Shown: one piece after another, positions 1,339-23,781 of the stretch
Layout: each line of letters starts with the position of its first letter
Numbering within the stretch: the first letter of the stretch is position 1
Virus record (IMG/VR): IMGVR_UViG_3300024353_000200
Coordinates: 1-35,604 of that record
DNA from: a virus
Length of the DNA: 35,604 nucleotides
Direction: 5' to 3' (one strand)
Made by a program: the position numbers and the translations under genes
Notes under the pieces: model-generated
Told to the model about the DNA's origin: nothing
What the model saw: the letters and a program-made list of their open reading frames with translations, nothing else
Database searches by the model: none

Positions 1339-1941
1339 GTGTGCAACTTGGCAGGTAAACTCGTGGATACATCCGTGGATACACCCATAGGTAAATCAGA
1401 GCCTTGGGAACGTCAACCTGGCGAAACCAACAAAGCCTACTATGCTTTCACCCTGTACCGGGACATGGGCTACAAGCGAAGCTTGGTGAAAGTAGGGCAA
1501 AAGTATGGTGGAAACCGTAACATCCGAGCCTTAATGGAACGTTGGAGTTCACAATATAACTGGGTTGAACGAGTTACTGCTTACGATGATTATTTAGAGT
1601 TGCAGAAGCGACTTGCCCATGAGGAAGAGTTGGAGAAGATGTGCAAGCGCCACCTCACCTTAAGTATGGCATTGCAGTCGAAAGCAGCTGAGAAACTTAA
1701 GGATCTCGAGGGGAAAAAGATGCGCGTCAGCGATGCAATCCGGGCTGTCAGCGAGGGAACCAAGCTGGAAAGGCTCACCAGGGGAGAACCCACAGAGAAG
1801 GTGCGAGGCGAACTTGTCACAACCATTAAAGGCCCTGCTGTGATGCCTTGGGAGAACATGCCTGAAGCCCGAGACGCCATAAGACAAGTTGCGGAAAAGC
1901 TGCGTAGGGAAAAGAACCAGAGTGACGCAAGCTCTTCCTAA
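1339..1941 (+). CDS. Terminase small subunit-like protein
   Basis: 200 residues, placed immediately before the large terminase. Such proteins recognise viral DNA and hand it to the ATPase motor. The N-terminal half contains a helical, HTH-like segment (RDMGYKRSLVKVGQKYGG, about residues 42-60) typical of small terminases, which choose the next repeat by stepwise sequence reading. It is followed by a charged helical middle (LQKRLAHEEELEKMCKRHL) that could oligomerise. GTG 1339 directly follows the upstream TAG. TTG 1348 is an alternative, better spaced from the SD-like AGGTG at 1337-1341. The gene overlaps the large subunit. The call rests on position, size and HTH pattern, not on a recognised family signature. 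Confidence 0.7.
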   Translation: MCNLAGKLVDTSVDTPIGKSEPWERQPGETNKAYYAFTLYRDMGYKRSLVKVGQKYGGNRNIRALMERWSSQYNWVERVTAYDDYLELQKRLAHEEELEKMCKRHLTLSMALQSKAAEKLKDLEGKKMRVSDAIRAVSEGTKLERLTRGEPTEKVRGELVTTIKGPAVMPWENMPEARDAIRQVAEKLRREKNQSDASSS

Positions 1942-3169
1942 CTATTACAGGTATATACCTGACGCCGGTAAGCAGCTGCAGTTCCACGCTGCACGAAACA
2001 TCTACCGTTTCAGATCTGTCATCTGCGGAACAGGCGGAGGCAAAACCGTATGTGGCCTAGCTGAAGGGATCAGTTGGGCTAAGAAGTATCCTGGAAGCGT
2101 CGGTTACGTTTTTGAGCCAAGTTTCCCCATGGTACGTCGCATCTTGTTGCCAACGCTCCGGCGTGATTTGTTGCTTGGAAAGCCTCTGCACGCTAACCCT
2201 GACATCAAACGGTTTCACCGGGGCGATATGCGCCTCGAGTGGGAGAACGGCAGCGAATTCTGGTTTGTCAGCCTTGAAGACCCTGAGATGGCTGAGGGCA
2301 GCAACATCGACTGGGGTATGATTGACGAAGCTCGCCTGGTGCGGCACTTTGATGTGGCCTTGAGAACTGTTATTCGCAGACTGCGAGGCAGTGACCCAAG
2401 CCAGGGCTATCCGACTGGCCTGTGGATCACGACAACGCCAGATGCTCCAGGTAGTGATTTACACCGGTTTATTGAGAACCCGAAGACGAAGCACCCTGAC
2501 AGCAAAGTGTTCAGGTGGGGCATACATGACAACCGGCACTTAACAGCGGAGTACATCAGGGACATATTGCGCACTCACCACGGCGGCTTAGCTGAAAGGT
2601 TCGTGCATGGCCGGTTCGCCGCTGTCGGCGTTGGCACAATTCCCTTCGACGCTTCTGTGCATGTCACGTCAATAATCAACAAACAAATCATCGTTCAAAT
2701 GGTTTATGGCGTAGACTTTGGCTGGAGTAACCCGAGCTGCGTTTTAGCCATAGGATTTGACCGTGACGGTCGCGCTTATGTGCTTGAGGAATATTATGAG
2801 GCTCGAGTGACAGAAGACAAAGTGAAGGAAGTTCTCCAGGACATGCAAAGCCGCTGGGGTCGCGGGCGTGTCTATTGCGATCCTACTCAGCTGCAGACGA
2901 TCAACTGGCTGATCAGCCATGGCATACTTGCTCAGAAGAGCCTTCCGAAGCGAGTCGAGGGGATCCGGCATATGGCTGGGTATTTTCCTAAAGCCGAGGA
3001 CAACAGACCCCGAATTCAGATTCATAGTAATTGCGTCAACCTAACCGCGGAACTGCAGGTGTATGACGAAACCAAAAAAGAGTTTGACCATGCTGTTGAC
3101 ACTTTGCGCTATGGTTTAGGGAGTCGAATGAAGAAAGAAGGCGACGTCGACGCCTGGATACTTGGGTAA
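1922..3169 (+). CDS. Terminase large subunit (packaging ATPase-nuclease)
   Basis: DNA-packaging motor. Numbering from an upstream TTG at 1889, Walker A is GTGGGKT (47-53) and Walker B with catalytic glutamate is GMIDEA (about 143-148). The C-terminal RNase H-like nuclease carries acidic residues in VYGVDFGWSN (D276), VYCDPTQ (D331) and DHAVDTLRYG (about D400-D404). I prefer GTG 1922 as start because it shortens the overlap with the small subunit from 53 to 20 nt and loses only 11 non-conserved residues. At about 415 residues it is a normal-length terminase with both ATPase and nuclease halves intact. It acts at the portal to cut and pump DNA into the prohead. Both domains are unmistakable. 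Confidence 0.95.
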   Translation: MTQALPNYYRYIPDAGKQLQFHAARNIYRFRSVICGTGGGKTVCGLAEGISWAKKYPGSVGYVFEPSFPMVRRILLPTLRRDLLLGKPLHANPDIKRFHRGDMRLEWENGSEFWFVSLEDPEMAEGSNIDWGMIDEARLVRHFDVALRTVIRRLRGSDPSQGYPTGLWITTTPDAPGSDLHRFIENPKTKHPDSKVFRWGIHDNRHLTAEYIRDILRTHHGGLAERFVHGRFAAVGVGTIPFDASVHVTSIINKQIIVQMVYGVDFGWSNPSCVLAIGFDRDGRAYVLEEYYEARVTEDKVKEVLQDMQSRWGRGRVYCDPTQLQTINWLISHGILAQKSLPKRVEGIRHMAGYFPKAEDNRPRIQIHSNCVNLTAELQVYDETKKEFDHAVDTLRYGLGSRMKKEGDVDAWILG

Positions 3170-3253: not shown

Positions 3254-3706
3254 ATGACTTGGACAACTCGAGAGAAATTCTTAGCAGCACTCTTCATTGT
3301 GACCTTAGCTGTAGCCACTATAATTATTGTAGCTCCAGCTTTCCGAGTAAAGAACGTCGGGGCAATCCGGGCCGTCGGGGTTAAGTTGTACTGGGACGAG
3401 CAGGCTACCCAAGTCGTAACCCTCATCGATTGGGGGCTCATGGGTCCAGGAGAACTGAAAGGCGCCACGGTTTACATTCGCAACATTAAGAGCTTAAACT
3501 GCACTCTCACTCAAAACTCTACAGAGTGGGATCCTGCACATGCAGGGCAATACTTAACGACTGACTGGAACTATACAGGGCAGATCATCGCTCCAGGCCA
3601 GCAGATCTCTGTCTTGCTGACGCTTCAAGTGTCGATCGGCATAGAGAACGTGACGACCTTTTCTTATTGCTGGGACTTTTGGGCGATTGAAGCATCGGCT
3701 GGTTAA
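3254..3706 (+). CDS. Membrane-anchored, sequon-rich surface protein
   Basis: 150 residues. A single N-terminal hydrophobic segment (about 10-29, LAALFIVTLAVATIIIVAPA) is followed by a beta-rich ectodomain with four N-glycosylation sequons (NCT, NST, NYT, NVT). This is the architecture of archaeal secreted or cell-envelope proteins with an Ig-like fold, and superficially of a type IV pilin-like subunit, though no clear class III signal peptidase site is visible. ATG 3254 is preceded by an AAAAGGAAAC ribosome-site-like stretch. It sits alone between terL and the gene-free structured block, so it may be a cargo gene altering the host surface (superinfection exclusion) or a virion membrane protein. 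I do not recognise the family. Confidence 0.75.
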   Translation: MTWTTREKFLAALFIVTLAVATIIIVAPAFRVKNVGAIRAVGVKLYWDEQATQVVTLIDWGLMGPGELKGATVYIRNIKSLNCTLTQNSTEWDPAHAGQYLTTDWNYTGQIIAPGQQISVLLTLQVSIGIENVTTFSYCWDFWAIEASAG

Positions 3707-3718
3707 CGGTTGTATGGC

Positions 3719-3767
3719 GCCAGATCTCGAGGGGATCATTGGTTGATAAGTGGCTGTTAGGCTGCCG
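3719..3767 (+). repeat. Dispersed intergenic repeat, copy B
   Basis: Second copy of the element at 3178-3225, with the shared order CCAG, CTCGAG, GAT, ATTGG, TGAT, AAG (3720-3750) and then a GGCTGTT..TGCC unit (3752-3766). Here the CTCGAG part falls inside the 5' helix of the structured block. A weaker partial match, GCGCCAG followed by CCTCGAG, lies at 11028-11045. Confidence 0.45.
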
Positions 3768-3793
3768 GGAGATCTGACGTCTTCGGATGGTTT

Positions 3794-3832
3794 ACGTCTT
3801 ACAGTAGCAACATTCGTCTTACGATAGTAACA
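3794..3832 (+). repeat. Tandem imperfect 19-nt direct repeat inside the structured block
   Basis: Positions 3794-3812 and 3814-3832 share CGTCTTAC followed by a TAG.AACA tail, with a few substitutions. The second copy can form a small TTAC/GTAA hairpin. Possible repeated protein-binding or RNA-structural unit. Confidence 0.5.
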
Positions 3833-4417
3833 TAGTTCACGGTCCTTAATTGGACGTTGAGGCTCTGCAGCCTGTTCTCCTTTCTCGTGTCGGGTGCTGA
3901 GAACTGAATTTGTCTTCAATCGGGCTGCACGAGCTTCGATTCAAACTAACTCTCAGGAGTTAGGCGCAGGGGAGTAAGACTACGAAGTCTTCAACTCTAG
4001 ACCATTTTCGTACCCCTTATGGTTTTGAGCAGGGCTTCGAGTCTAAGCGCAATACAAATCTCCCCACAACCTCGCACAGACGTTAGGCGGAGACCTCAAC
4101 CCGTCACGATAACACCTTTTGCTGAGGTGTAGGCTCGAGCGAGGGGAGCTGAATAACGAGGCGTTCATGGGACGCCTACAAACCTAACGTCCTCCAGATG
4201 TCACTTAGGGACCTGAGCACCGACCGCTGAGGAATATGTGTGTGACCGACACGGCAAGGCTACTGCCAGATAGTGTAGCTTCACACATAGCAGCCCGACG
4301 TCGTGGCTGACCTCGGAAAAATTCCCCAATGTGCTATTCGCAGGGGATTTCCCTCGAGGCTCCATAGAAGCCGGTTAGACAGGTCCCGCATATACTGTTC
4401 GCGCATTCTGAGGCAAG

Positions 4418-4624
4418 ATGGCAATGCACGAGAAAATCTGCAGAATCGTCCAGAAAGTCAATAAATGTTTTTGCAGTCCAAGGCCGCCCTATTGTCTACT
4501 CGTTGATGCCTTAGCGAAAGGGCTTAACGAAAGGGAATGCCTTGAAGCATTAGCGAAAAGGATTAACGAGGAATGTACCCACGTTGAGAAGTCCAATATC
4601 AAGCCTAGAAGAGTGGCTGTTTAA
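4418..4624 (+). CDS. Small cysteine-containing protein of unknown function
   Basis: 68 residues from ATG 4418, with a GAGG ribosome site at 4410-4413 just upstream. It contains five cysteines (CRIV, CFCSPRPPYC, ECLEAL, ECTH) and a helical middle with an internal echo: LAKGLNERECLEALAKRINEE repeats an LAK.(L/I)NE pattern. No family recognised. It directly follows the structured RNA block and overlaps the longest reading of the next frame, so it probably belongs to the head operon. The ribosome site, codon flow and position favour a real gene, but its shortness leaves doubt. Confidence 0.5.
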   Translation: MAMHEKICRIVQKVNKCFCSPRPPYCLLVDALAKGLNERECLEALAKRINEECTHVEKSNIKPRRVAV

Positions 4625-4640
4625 ACAGAAACGTCGTGTC

Positions 4641-4874
4641 ATGACGTCAGTTTGGAGCAGGGAAATAGCGAAAGCTAACCAATTCAAAAAACTTGTCGGG
4701 GAAACCAACTGTCCATCCTGCGAAAAACCATTGCTGAAACTGCGAAAGTACGAGCAGGGACCTAAAGGCTACGAAGCCGAAGTGCGCTGTGAAGGCTGCA
4801 ACTTCACCGGGTTGCTGAATAGCAGCTGGACAAACTTCGAGCATGTTGACAGCAAAGGGCGTGCACGTGAGTAA
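4641..4874 (+). CDS. Small zinc-ribbon protein
   Basis: About 77 residues from ATG 4641; the frame stays open to a TTG at 4584, which would overlap the previous gene by 41 nt. Two CxxC knuckles, NCPSC and RCEGC, about 26 residues apart define a zinc ribbon, with the basic stretch KLRKYEQGPKGYEAEV between them. The stop overlaps the portal start as TAATG, so translation is coupled to portal. Zinc-ribbon mini-proteins bind DNA, RNA or protein. Nothing here fixes the partner, although its position beside portal suggests an assembly or packaging accessory. Confidence 0.7.
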   Translation: MTSVWSREIAKANQFKKLVGETNCPSCEKPLLKLRKYEQGPKGYEAEVRCEGCNFTGLLNSSWTNFEHVDSKGRARE

Positions 4875-6370
4875 TGAGTAGTCGAGTAGGCGGCAGACGC
4901 ATAGGATCGGCAACAACACGTTCAGAGAGCTCCATCTATCTTCCTCGAGGCGGAGTCAGCGGCGCCGGGCAATACGGCGAGGAAATAAACGATCGAAGCC
5001 GCACATTCGCCATATTGCGAGAACCAGTTGCTCACCGTGTAGTCTGCACAGTGGCCAAGGACGTTTTTGACAACTGGTTCACTTTGGAACTGGAAGGGGC
5101 GAAAGAGAAGGATAACAAAGCCTTCGATCAGCTGCTTCAAGCTGAGCTTAGACGTCTCCGAGCAAAACGTGAGCTCACCATCATGAGCGTCATGGAGCGA
5201 GGCTACGGCTACGGCATAATAGTTCTCGGTTACCAAGACGACGCTGAAAGCTTAGAGGAACCCCTTAAAGCCCCGTCAGCTCTGCGACAGATCAAAGCGT
5301 ATGGCACACCGCAAATAACGAAAGTGGCGTTAGACAAAAAAGAGACACTTGAGGATGGCAAGCCAAACCCGCATTTTATGCTGCCTGAAATCTACTTCAT
5401 TCAACAGAAGGGCGTGACTCGACGCCTCAGAGTTCACCACAGCAGGGTCATACATTTCGCAACTCGGTATGAGGACCCGACTAAAGATCAGTGGCAAGGC
5501 CAAAGCGTTCTCGACCCACTTTGGGACGACGTGGTGACTCTTCGTAACATTCGCTGGAGCATGGGGCAAACCATGTTCCGATACGGCTCGGGCTTTCCAG
5601 TATTCACATTTAACGAAGCAACAAAGGCACAGCTGCAATCTTGGGAAGCTGCAGGACTCTTCGGCGACATCAGCAACCGCACGTACTTCCTCAAAAACGA
5701 GAAGCAAGACATCTCATTCGAAGGCTTAGCCGGGCGAGCTTTGGATCCTCTGAATTACTATCTGCCTCAAATGGAACACATCAGCGCCGCTTCAGGCATC
5801 CCCCTGGCGATTCTCAGAGGCGTTCAAGCCGGCGCATTGACAGGCAGCGAAGTTAACCAAATGGAATATTACGGCATCATCAGCGACGAACAAACCGCAT
5901 ACGAATCCGGCTTGCGCAAACTCGTCGACATCATAAGACTGTTCGCCATCAAGAAGGACAAAAAAGCCGTCGAGAAAATGGGAGCTGCCGAAGTCGACCA
6001 GGCAATCATCGCCGTGGCATTCAGCGACACGTTCATCGGTTTTGACGCTGTTAAACTTCCAGAAGAAGCAGAGCTGCAGGCGTTCCTTTTCAACTGGAAA
6101 GGCGGCTTTGAACTTGACGAAGAGAAGAAACAACGCATCGCATTAATGAAGGCGCAAGAGCTGCAAATTCGAGGTCAATGGCTTCGGATAAACGAGATTA
6201 GAAAGGTCGAAAACCCCGAAGACGTCGGAATAGGTCCTGAAGGCGAAAAACTTCTAGGGCAACCGAGTGTAGATTTCCAAAACTTAGGGCAGAGTGCTTT
6301 TCGTGTCACAGTTAATCCAGATGGATCCTCAACGGTTATTGAGAAGCCTGGACGCCGCATTAAAGGTTAA
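4874..6370 (+). CDS. Portal protein
   Basis: 498 residues, the expected size for a portal, the dodecameric ring at the unique vertex through which terminase pumps DNA. The pattern is that of the DUF1073/phage_portal_6-like group. An N-terminal part reads REPVAHRVVCTVAKDVFDNWF, then a GYGYGIIVLGYQD strand region, the segment SRVIHFATRYEDPTKDQW followed by a QSVLDPLWDDV helix, and the HISAASGIPLAILRG region typical of the portal clip/stem. A long charged C-terminus follows. ATG 4874 overlaps the preceding TAA by one base. The gene lies after terL and before the minor head protein, the canonical order. Confidence 0.9.
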   Translation: MSSRVGGRRIGSATTRSESSIYLPRGGVSGAGQYGEEINDRSRTFAILREPVAHRVVCTVAKDVFDNWFTLELEGAKEKDNKAFDQLLQAELRRLRAKRELTIMSVMERGYGYGIIVLGYQDDAESLEEPLKAPSALRQIKAYGTPQITKVALDKKETLEDGKPNPHFMLPEIYFIQQKGVTRRLRVHHSRVIHFATRYEDPTKDQWQGQSVLDPLWDDVVTLRNIRWSMGQTMFRYGSGFPVFTFNEATKAQLQSWEAAGLFGDISNRTYFLKNEKQDISFEGLAGRALDPLNYYLPQMEHISAASGIPLAILRGVQAGALTGSEVNQMEYYGIISDEQTAYESGLRKLVDIIRLFAIKKDKKAVEKMGAAEVDQAIIAVAFSDTFIGFDAVKLPEEAELQAFLFNWKGGFELDEEKKQRIALMKAQELQIRGQWLRINEIRKVENPEDVGIGPEGEKLLGQPSVDFQNLGQSAFRVTVNPDGSSTVIEKPGRRIKG

Positions 6371-8329: not shown

Positions 8330-8344
8330 CGCTCGCACAGTCCC

Positions 8345-8351
8345 TTTTTTT
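8345..8351 (+). terminator. T7 run, probable archaeal terminator
   Basis: Seven consecutive Ts 16 nt past the protease stop. Archaeal polymerase terminates at T-rich stretches without needing a hairpin. This would end the terminase-to-protease unit before the capsid unit. Confidence 0.5.
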
Positions 8352-8369
8352 CACGGTCACACAGTTGAC

Positions 8370-8512
8370 ACCTACAGAGAGCTAGGTATGAGGCTTTCCC
8401 TAGTGGACAACAAGCTAGGCTTCGGAACGTATTCCGAACGTCGTTATAAACGGCTTTGGAATGCATTCCTTAAAGTCGGTTGTTCACGCCTACGCGGGCG
8501 TGGCTAAAGAAC
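8370..8512 (+). other. Hairpin-rich leader ahead of the scaffold-capsid genes
   Basis: Five perfect stems stand in about 140 nt: 8370-8373/8384-8387, 8399-8403/8415-8419, 8421-8427/8432-8438 (7 bp, CGTA loop), the palindrome 8458-8469, and 8485-8490/8497-8502 (6 bp), with flanking GTTC/GAAC adding an outer clamp. A TTATAAAC at about 8444-8451 could be a TATA box, which would make the last two stems part of a 5' leader for the capsid operon. The alternative is a small structured RNA. No ORF fits here. Confidence 0.5.
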
Positions 8513-8540
8513 TCCGCAACAAACTTAGGAGAGAAACTAT

Positions 8541-9026
8541 TTGCCTAAAAAGAAAATTCAAAAGGATGCAACACCTCAAAGGGTAAAACCAACAGTAGAT
8601 AGCCCCATGGCTCATTCGATTGCGATTGACAGGTTGACCTTGAAAAATGCCAAGCTTGAAACTGCACTTGATGCTGTATCCCTCGAGCTTGTAGCAGCAA
8701 AGGATGCACTCAAGAAAATTGAATCAGGCTACAACGCTGAAGTCGCAACTAAACTAATGATGGACATTCAAATGGTTCTAGACATCAGCGACGATGAACG
8801 AGACAAGCTCTGCCACGGCAAAAACGATGAAGACCTTTCCCTAATGCTGGAGAACTTTGTAACGGCCACAAAGAAACGAACACCAGGGGATCCGGGCATT
8901 TTCAAGCCGATTCGAACCGGCGCTGCAGAACCCCGCAAATACGGAGACGACACAGAAAACTTCACAGTTGGATGCTTATACGGCAAATCTAGAGAGGAGA
9001 TCTTGAAGATGGGAGGCAAAATGTAA
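8541..9026 (+). CDS. Probable scaffolding / capsid-assembly protein
   Basis: 161 residues from TTG 8541, with AGGAGAG at 8527-8533 placed 7 nt upstream. Residues about 24-65 form a heptad-like coiled coil (IDRLTLKNAKLETALDAVSL and onward), flanked by a lysine-rich N-terminus. The C-terminus is extended and Gly/Pro-rich (TPGDPGIFKPIRTG). Small coiled-coil proteins directly before decoration and major capsid genes are usually internal scaffolds. No family signature is recognised, so the role rests on position and coiled coil. The stop overlaps the next start (TAATG). Confidence 0.55.
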   Translation: MPKKKIQKDATPQRVKPTVDSPMAHSIAIDRLTLKNAKLETALDAVSLELVAAKDALKKIESGYNAEVATKLMMDIQMVLDISDDERDKLCHGKNDEDLSLMLENFVTATKKRTPGDPGIFKPIRTGAAEPRKYGDDTENFTVGCLYGKSREEILKMGGKM

Positions 9027-9520: not shown

Positions 9521-9532
9521 TAGGTGACTAAC

Positions 9533-10429
9533 ATGCGAGGAATACGAAGAGTCGGAACAGCCACAGCTGTTTTGACAGACGAAGAAATGAACTACATCGA
9601 CGAAAAAGTTGTCGAAACCATCCGACCCTTGCTGATCGGACGACAACTATTCCCCTCACACGGCCTTGGACACGCAGGCTTCAGAACAGTCACATTCTAC
9701 ACTGAAGGCGAAATGAGCGCCGCCATAATGGACATGGAAGCCCAGCAGGAGAGCATGGATCGTGTGCCATTAGCTCCGCATACGGTCACGGTTCCAGTTC
9801 TCCACAAAGAAACCCGGTTGTTCTGGCGAGATCTCGAGATGAAACGAAAATCCGGACAGCCTATAGACGTTGCGCACGCCAAAAATGCGGGTCGGCGAGT
9901 TGCAGAAATGGAAGACTTGTTCCTGCTCACAGGAGATCATACTGGTGTCAACTACTTAGGTGTCGAAGGATTATCAACTGCGACCGGACGCTTAACGGGT
10001 GCCGGTGGCGATTGGGTGCAAGCAGGCACATCTTACAACTGTCTAACATACATTGCCACAGCCATCGCAGCACTAGAAGCAGCAGGACACTACGGTCCCT
10101 ACAAACTGATTTTACCCACTGCATTCAACGCTGAACTAAGAACTGCACACCCGGACTTGGATCAATGGCTGTTCAAAAGCGTCGGCGACCTAATTGGCGG
10201 AGTCGAAAACATCTTAGTCAGCCCAAGCCTGAAAGCAGCTGACGGCGTTGCTGACAGCGCCTTAGTTGTAGAACCAGGCGAGGGAAACTTTGACTTGTTA
10301 CTCGGCGAAGACGCACATACCATAAACTTCCCTGAGAAGGGCGGAAACATATGGCTTAGTGTGCGTGAGGTTGTTGCTCCACGAATTAGACGTCCAAAAG
10401 CAATCTACGAAATCACGGCCTTAACGTAG
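9533..10429 (+). CDS. Major capsid protein, encapsulin-like HK97 fold
   Basis: 298 residues from ATG 9533. AGGTGA at 9522-9527 sits 5 nt upstream, so I prefer this over GTG 9524. The pattern matches family-1 encapsulin/linocin M18-type proteins across its length. An N-terminal LTDEEMNYIDEKVVETIRPL helix leads into GRQLFPSHGLGHAG and a basic-acidic E-loop-like region. The P-domain helix (AGRRVAEMEDLFLLTGDHTG) follows, then GHYGPYKLILPTAF with AELRTAHPD, NILVSPSLK, DLLLGEDAHTI, and the terminal strand VREVVAPRIRRPKAIYEI. Encapsulins are thought to descend from such viral capsid proteins. Here it lies beside portal, protease and terminase, so it forms the icosahedral shell of a true virion. Confidence 0.85.
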   Translation: MRGIRRVGTATAVLTDEEMNYIDEKVVETIRPLLIGRQLFPSHGLGHAGFRTVTFYTEGEMSAAIMDMEAQQESMDRVPLAPHTVTVPVLHKETRLFWRDLEMKRKSGQPIDVAHAKNAGRRVAEMEDLFLLTGDHTGVNYLGVEGLSTATGRLTGAGGDWVQAGTSYNCLTYIATAIAALEAAGHYGPYKLILPTAFNAELRTAHPDLDQWLFKSVGDLIGGVENILVSPSLKAADGVADSALVVEPGEGNFDLLLGEDAHTINFPEKGGNIWLSVREVVAPRIRRPKAIYEITALT

Positions 10430-23672: not shown

Positions 23673-23711
23673 ACCATTATATCCATTCCGTTCTCTAAAA
23701 TAGTTAGGGAT

Positions 23712-23765
23712 CCTACTAGGTGTTCCATCTCACATCACCCTATGTGATTGGTTCTACCTAGTAGG
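23712..23765. repeat. Nested palindrome between converging units
   Basis: CCTACTAGGT (23712-23721) pairs with ACCTAGTAGG (23756-23765), and inside them TCACAT (23730-23735) pairs with ATGTGA (23742-23747). The inner part includes one copy of the 19-bp element also found inverted at 25815-25833. It lies where plus-strand late and minus-strand regulatory transcripts converge, so it may serve as a bidirectional terminator, a ParB/RHH binding site, or both. Confidence 0.55.
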
Positions 23766-23781
23766 CTTCCCTACCCTTCTA

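Follow-up and report, generated by a model that had tools for sequence, protein, structure and literature searches.

The DNA analysed here, called the window throughout, is a virus record of 35.6 kb from IMG/VR. Between its terminase and portal genes lie a gene for a small protein, a region of 711 nt, a short ORF and a gene for a Zn-ribbon-like protein (Table 1). The relatives of the portal protein belong to Bathyarchaeia viruses and to proviral contigs; the host of the window virus is therefore most likely a bathyarchaeon, in agreement with the first-pass annotation, which had taken the DNA for that of an archaeal virus. In the closest portal relatives (L002, L003 and L004, with portals 52-54% identical to that of the window), terL, the Zn-ribbon gene and the portal gene are present without the insert, showing that the small-protein gene, the RNA region and the 68-aa ORF are an insertion in the window's lineage. 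Homologues of the small protein are found in L031, L016 and L029, and more weakly in L011; single-sequence searches with the terminase returned one distant locus. Elsewhere in the window, gene 1-1338 joins a ParB-like N-terminal domain to a D12-class adenine methyltransferase domain, and positions 9524-10429 encode the likely major capsid protein (encapsulin family match, PF04454, E 1.7e-25, and phrog_264). A strong imperfect inverted repeat at 23696-23781, present on both strands, separates plus-strand from minus-strand gene blocks and is likely a bidirectional terminator.

Table 1. Features of the terminase-portal interval of the window and of the RNA that it contains
Feature	Position	Strand	Evidence or remark
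Terminase large subunit	1889..3169	+	PF04466, phrog_2
Small protein with N-terminal hydrophobic segment, pilin-like by appearance	3254..3706	+	Directly 5' of the RNA region
Noncoding region, candidate extent of the large RNA (ends approximate)	3707..4417 (711 nt)	+	ORF scan, gap map, fold z -3.67
9-bp helix of the first-pass annotation	4079-4087/4183-4191	+	Alternative to P3, without comparative support
Conserved four-way-junction module	4121..4218	+	Covariance model R2 from five other viruses
P1	4121-4128 GCUGAGGU / 4211-4218 ACCUGAGC	+	R2 alignment; one G-G mismatch
P1a hairpin GGCUC/GAGCU	4132..4150 (pairs 4132-4136/4146-4150)	+	Between UGUA and GAAUAACG
Invariant joining segment GAAUAACG	4151..4158	+	R2 alignment, family comparison
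P2 AGGCGU/ACGCCU, loop UCAUGGG	4159..4177 (pairs 4159-4164/4172-4177)	+	Sequence-invariant helix
Joining segment ACAA	4178..4181	+	Family alignment, R2
P3 CCUAA/UUAGG, 5 bp	4183..4209 (pairs 4183-4187/4205-4209)	+	Sequence pairing, local fold
8-bp helix of the first-pass annotation	4208-4215/4380-4387	+	Alternative to P1, without comparative support
68-aa ORF, no family assigned	4418..4624	+	3' of the RNA region
Zn-ribbon-like protein, by appearance	4584-4874		Between the 68-aa ORF and the portal gene
Portal protein	4874..6370	+	PF06381, phrog_146

The block 3719-4400 had been described as free of plus-strand ORFs, and this holds for the whole of 3707-4417, where the longest plus-strand stretch from stop to stop is 43 aa. 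A search of all six frames found no convincing homologue, which lends no support to a conserved frameshifted protein across the block. The plus strand of the gap has a minimum free energy of -259 kcal/mol, compared to -231 +/- 7.7 for 100 dinucleotide shuffles, none of which folds as low (z -3.67); for 3719-4400 the value is z -3.83. When 200-nt windows are taken across the whole record, those starting at 4201 and 3901 on the plus strand come near the top rank, and those at 3901 and 3751 on the same strand, both outside the module of Table 1, fold strongly. The minus strand of the gap reaches z -3.13 in the same test, and its 200-nt window at 4201 reaches z -6.5. Thus, the high degree of structure claimed for this RNA stands up against shuffled controls, the energy arguing for structure and not for either strand. 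Searches with blastn and nhmmer among phages and portal-related loci found no direct homologue of the 711 nt beyond the module, so that folding energy is what argues for structure in the remaining 600 nt.

The module was recognized by comparison. L011, a portal relative, has a noncoding stretch after a weakly similar small-protein gene, and this stretch and the window have the string UAACGAGGCGU-N7-ACGCCUAC in common. A scan of IMG/VR viral contigs with the pattern TAACGAGGCGT-N(4-12)-ACGCCTAC yielded 98 stretches, most of them in noncoding gaps, apart from one group (L061, L064, L077, L081, L098 and L102) in which the pattern lies inside one conserved ORF and which was set aside as coding coincidences. 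The reversed control pattern gave 0 matches in 50 contigs. Covariance model R1 gave 75 matches at E<=1. When the stretches are aligned, a junction emerges that reads P1, J12 (AAA)UAACG, P2, J23 ACAA, P3, J31 AGAG, P1'. In a four-way variant there is one more hairpin, giving the order UGUAG-hairpin-(C/U)GAAUAACG. The source of the model was a length-matched subset (A4), the MAFFT alignment (A3) being misaligned in its 3' half. In the length-matched set of nine used for R1, 100% of the cells are paired; all six pairs of P1 and two of the three of P3 change on both sides, and P2 is constant. With these eight two-sided changes, the covariation score is 0.54; shuffles give 0.17 (0/500), and slid controls do not exceed 0.09. 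The set behind a second model, R2, consists of five viruses, with the window copy left out; it is again 100% paired, with 11 two-sided changes and a score of 0.62 against 0.23 in shuffles (0/500).

As a control for bias on P2, IMG/VR was rescanned with this helix left open (TAACG-N(16-26)-ACAANNNGAAANNNAGAG). AGGCGU/ACGCCU was found in 11 of the 11 matches having the P3 stem, and the other 39 matches lack both stems, as by chance. This means that P2 is conserved as a sequence, while the adjoining stems vary. In Arthrobacter phage Teacup, the sixth P2 pair is lost and five are kept. The RNAs carrying this module very probably make up a new viral RNA family.

R2 matches the window copy with 40.1 bits (E 1.3e-9 in 387 kb, a rough value from a short calibration). 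When R2 is run on the gap region with filters off, the module has an E of 2.5e-12 and the best minus-strand match scores only 9.3 bits, which settles that the module lies on the plus strand. The window has UGUA-hairpin-GAAUAACG, the P2 helix, ACAA, the closing helix P1 with its mismatch, and a P3 whose position matches that of the covarying P3 of the family. The layout UGUAG-hairpin-GAAUAACG is also found in L048, L056, L063, L093 and L137, and the P2 loop is identical in phage TJE1; by its sequence, the GUA...GAA around P1a is suggestive of a loop-E element. The J31 segment AGAG is not present in the window, where G4210 is the sole base between P3 and P1; it is degenerate also in L011 and other members. 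Indeed, the junction is altered in both the window and L011, with no AGAG and with P3 extended or absent. Local folding of 4119-4222 yields the module structure, including P1, which covaries in the family, whereas the energy model of the full 711 nt favours alternatives by 8 kcal/mol.

The first-pass annotation had listed two long-range helices in the RNA, each closing a multi-hairpin junction (Table 1). Inverted repeats of at least 9 bp number 2 in the gap versus 0.7 in shuffles, 45 of 300 shuffles reaching 2; those of at least 8 bp number 7 versus 2.7, with 4 of 300 shuffles reaching 7. Because long perfect repeats are only mildly in excess, these two helices say little by themselves: they are near chance, and they conflict with the P1 and P3 that the family supports. 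Since the same bases are used, at most one of the two sets can be formed at once, and a switch between them is a possible model. Covariation is found in P1 and P3 of the module family, and the helices originally listed are not the conserved ones. Likewise, the pairing CTCGAGGG/CCCTCGAG, which had been suggested to close the whole molecule, is one among several 8-bp pairs and has no comparative support.

The exact motif is single-copy in all 50 contigs tested, one of which has it at both ends, in the manner of a terminal repeat. A host-encoded element is not supported by the Bathyarchaeia genomes, 0 of 257 of which have the module. The window and L011 are the sole carriers among 41 portal-related sources, so that the module is sporadic in the window's lineage. 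It is carried by dozens of unrelated bacterial viruses, at one copy per genome. In Tetrasphaera phage TJE1, it is unannotated and scores 71.8 bits with R1. Shorter matches, also unannotated, occur in Microbacterium phage DizzyRudy (R1 15.6 bits), Stenotrophomonas virus Jojan60 (R1 15.0 bits), Arthrobacter phage Teacup and its relatives, and Rhodococcus phage ReT1v. R1 is weak on the actinophage and Jojan60 variants (at most 15.6 bits, and one R1 search missed Teacup), and the module is probably present in DizzyRudy, Teacup, Jojan60 and ReT1v. Compared to shuffles, the module loci of TJE1 and DizzyRudy have z values of -3.09 and -2.09, respectively. An upstream domain conserved in the actinophage RNAs (CCUAAACG..GCUG..AACAGUAA) was sought in the window and not found.

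No constant neighbour and no conserved downstream gene of the module was found across the contigs compared, and in many of them long noncoding flanks extend on both sides. The terminase is its most frequent named neighbour family: the module stands next to it in the window and L011, and T7-like terminases adjoin it in L096, L105 and L113. The distance to the terminase is about 1 kb in some viruses and 13-97 kb in others. Many copies lie beside tRNAs, and many others, including those of the window and L011, have no tRNA nearby. Complete canonical tRNAs are located 0-1 nt from the module or overlap it by a few nucleotides in L104, L116 and L135. Directly 5' of it, L107 (4437-4566) and L044 (8683-8813) have tRNA-like RNAs whose acceptor, D and T arms are intact and whose anticodon arm is lengthened by an insert of 66 nt. 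In Jojan60 (ON045087, L185), the module is closely followed on its 3' side by a tmRNA tRNA-like domain (2082-2164; RF00023, 61.8 bits), which is part of a tRNA cluster and has an encoded CCA and no mRNA-like part, about 292 model positions being missing. In five loci (L096, L105, L113, L124 and L138), a Shine-Dalgarno sequence and a mini-ORF (e.g. MATLEYTQYQ, MGYQ) shortly precede the module; these mini-ORFs end in Gln and the tandem stops TAATGA, and the stops fall within P1 in at least two loci, L105 and L138 among them. Finally, Microbacterium phage Camille (MH153800, L186) has a Pistol ribozyme at 1243-1301 (36.2 bits, just above the cut-off of 34.5). The surrounding locus is noncoding and agrees in its flanks with the RNA locus of DizzyRudy, where the module stands instead.

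The RNA of the gap has no match in Rfam at the gathering threshold, nor in a permissive search (E<=5) of 3650-4450; group I and II intron and known ribozyme models have no match in the window. In the window and the module-bearing loci scanned, Rfam recognized only tRNA, tmRNA and Pistol, none of which overlaps the module, in keeping with the earlier suggestion of a new RNA class. In the open-access literature searched, no description of the motif was found. The novelty would lie in the family, since structured RNAs carried by phages are already known as a kind. Phages are carriers of GOLLD and ROOL, frequently in the vicinity of tRNAs. These two and OLE are large ornate RNAs (PMC12286853), likewise structured and noncoding, but the models of all three fail to match either the window RNA or the scanned module loci. 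The same is true, for the window, of the phi29 packaging RNA, to which the RNA had also been likened: it too is viral and noncoding, with a three-way junction, and some copies of the module are near packaging genes, but the location of the module is not tied to them. The likeness to tmRNA and phage tmRNA-like RNAs (RF00023) lies in the Jojan60 arrangement and in other module loci that contain tRNA-like elements or a short ORF; however, the module itself is no part of tmRNA, and a tRNA-like domain with a tag reading frame was sought in the window and not found. Bacterial Y RNAs (YrlA) have a tRNA-like part and a sequence-conserved stem, in a different order from that of the module loci. A Y RNA/Ro60 reading was rejected: the YrlA model has no match, and none of 34 carriers has a TROVE/Ro60 gene that exceeds the cut-off. 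The T4 species 1 and 2 RNAs (rnaC and rnaD) are small stable RNAs of a viral tRNA cluster, species 1 ending in a T-arm; the module motif is absent from them, and they were discarded as relatives.

The window contains a second, independent structured RNA element at 8330-8540, between a DUF2213 protease gene and ORF 8541-9026, which is conserved in L005, L007, L008, L009, L013 and L034 and has no match in Rfam. Its hairpin CCCTAG/CTAGG covaries (CCCTAC/GTAGG, CCTTAG/CTAAG, CCCTCG/CGAGG). The loop GG(A/G)CAAC can pair with a downstream GTTG(T/C)TC to form a pseudoknot, followed by the hairpin CACGC/GCGTG and by CTAAAG.

Our tentative proposal, to which we give somewhat less than an even chance, is that a structured RNA acting in trans is encoded here; it would belong to a viral family without earlier description and engage a conserved component of translation or tRNA processing through P2. 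The conserved core is a three- or four-way junction (P1, an optional P1a, P2 and P3) in which P2 is invariant and the joining segments (UAACG, ACA(A) and AGAG) are fixed, and which in the window virus would be embedded in a larger, lineage-specific fold. The constancy of P2, next to a P1 and a P3 that change freely, in a module found at changing loci across bacterial and archaeal viruses, suggests that P2 and its flanks are probably a docking site for something conserved across all hosts. Against this, the invariance of P2 could come from an intramolecular catalytic or tertiary role. That tRNAs, tRNA-like RNAs, a tmRNA domain and short ORFs bearing a Shine-Dalgarno sequence are repeatedly fused with the module or lie beside it points to a target in translation or tRNA processing, a machinery that the RNA may occupy or redirect in infection; however, the adjacency to tRNAs could simply mean that RNA genes gather at hot spots of viral genomes. 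Action in trans fits better than action in cis, because the module is single-copy, has no constant neighbour and stands at a variable distance from the terminase.

The main rival to such a trans-acting docking RNA is a new self-cleaving or other processing ribozyme, freeing tRNAs, tRNA-like RNAs and large RNAs, with P2 and the joining segments as its catalytic core. Such a function would agree with the build of the module, a compact junction in which the outer stems covary and the core does not change, with its frequent place immediately 3' of a tRNA or tRNA-like RNA, and with the Pistol in the corresponding intergenic region of Camille. We nevertheless hold it to be unlikely: this Pistol and the DizzyRudy module do not occupy exactly the same position, no constant context of a cleavage site was recognized, and a wholly invariant 6-bp helix is unusual among known nucleolytic ribozymes. 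The mini-ORFs with stop codons in P1 (L105, L138 and others) and the many copies within untranslated tRNA operons might instead indicate a cis-acting element controlling the transcript that carries it, by antitermination, transcript stabilization or leader-peptide attenuation. This is quite unlikely, given that the downstream gene is not conserved, that each genome has exactly one copy and that many contigs have long noncoding flanks on either side.

The original suggestion of a packaging or virion RNA comparable to phi29 pRNA draws on the terminase as the commonest named neighbour, adjacent in the window, L011 and the T7-like L096, L105 and L113. It now appears improbable, as many other contigs have the module 13-97 kb away from the terminase, many viruses have it beside tRNAs, near portal relatives lack the RNA, and the pRNA, GOLLD and ROOL models are unmatched. 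Compatible with any of these explanations is the view that the fold outside 4121-4218 is decayed sequence and that the module alone matters. No relatives of the outer parts were found, the long perfect helices are near chance and the minus strand folds nearly as well; yet the z value over the 711 nt, the strong windows outside the module and the structured noncoding flanks of other carriers (TJE1) make this somewhat doubtful.

In its broadest form, the interpretation is of a universal viral RNA that bacterial and archaeal tailed viruses carry once per genome. Its invariant helix would bind a component common to the two domains (the ribosome, RNase P or another factor of tRNA processing), or the RNA would itself represent a new class of ribozyme; we consider the chances that this is so to be about equal either way. 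If true, this RNA, carried by viruses of archaea, proteobacteria and actinobacteria, with no entry in Rfam and no annotation in cultured phages, would join the few RNA elements that tailed viruses of two domains share. From the fixed helix, a common partner or a catalytic core is predicted, and the cultured carriers make this prediction testable.
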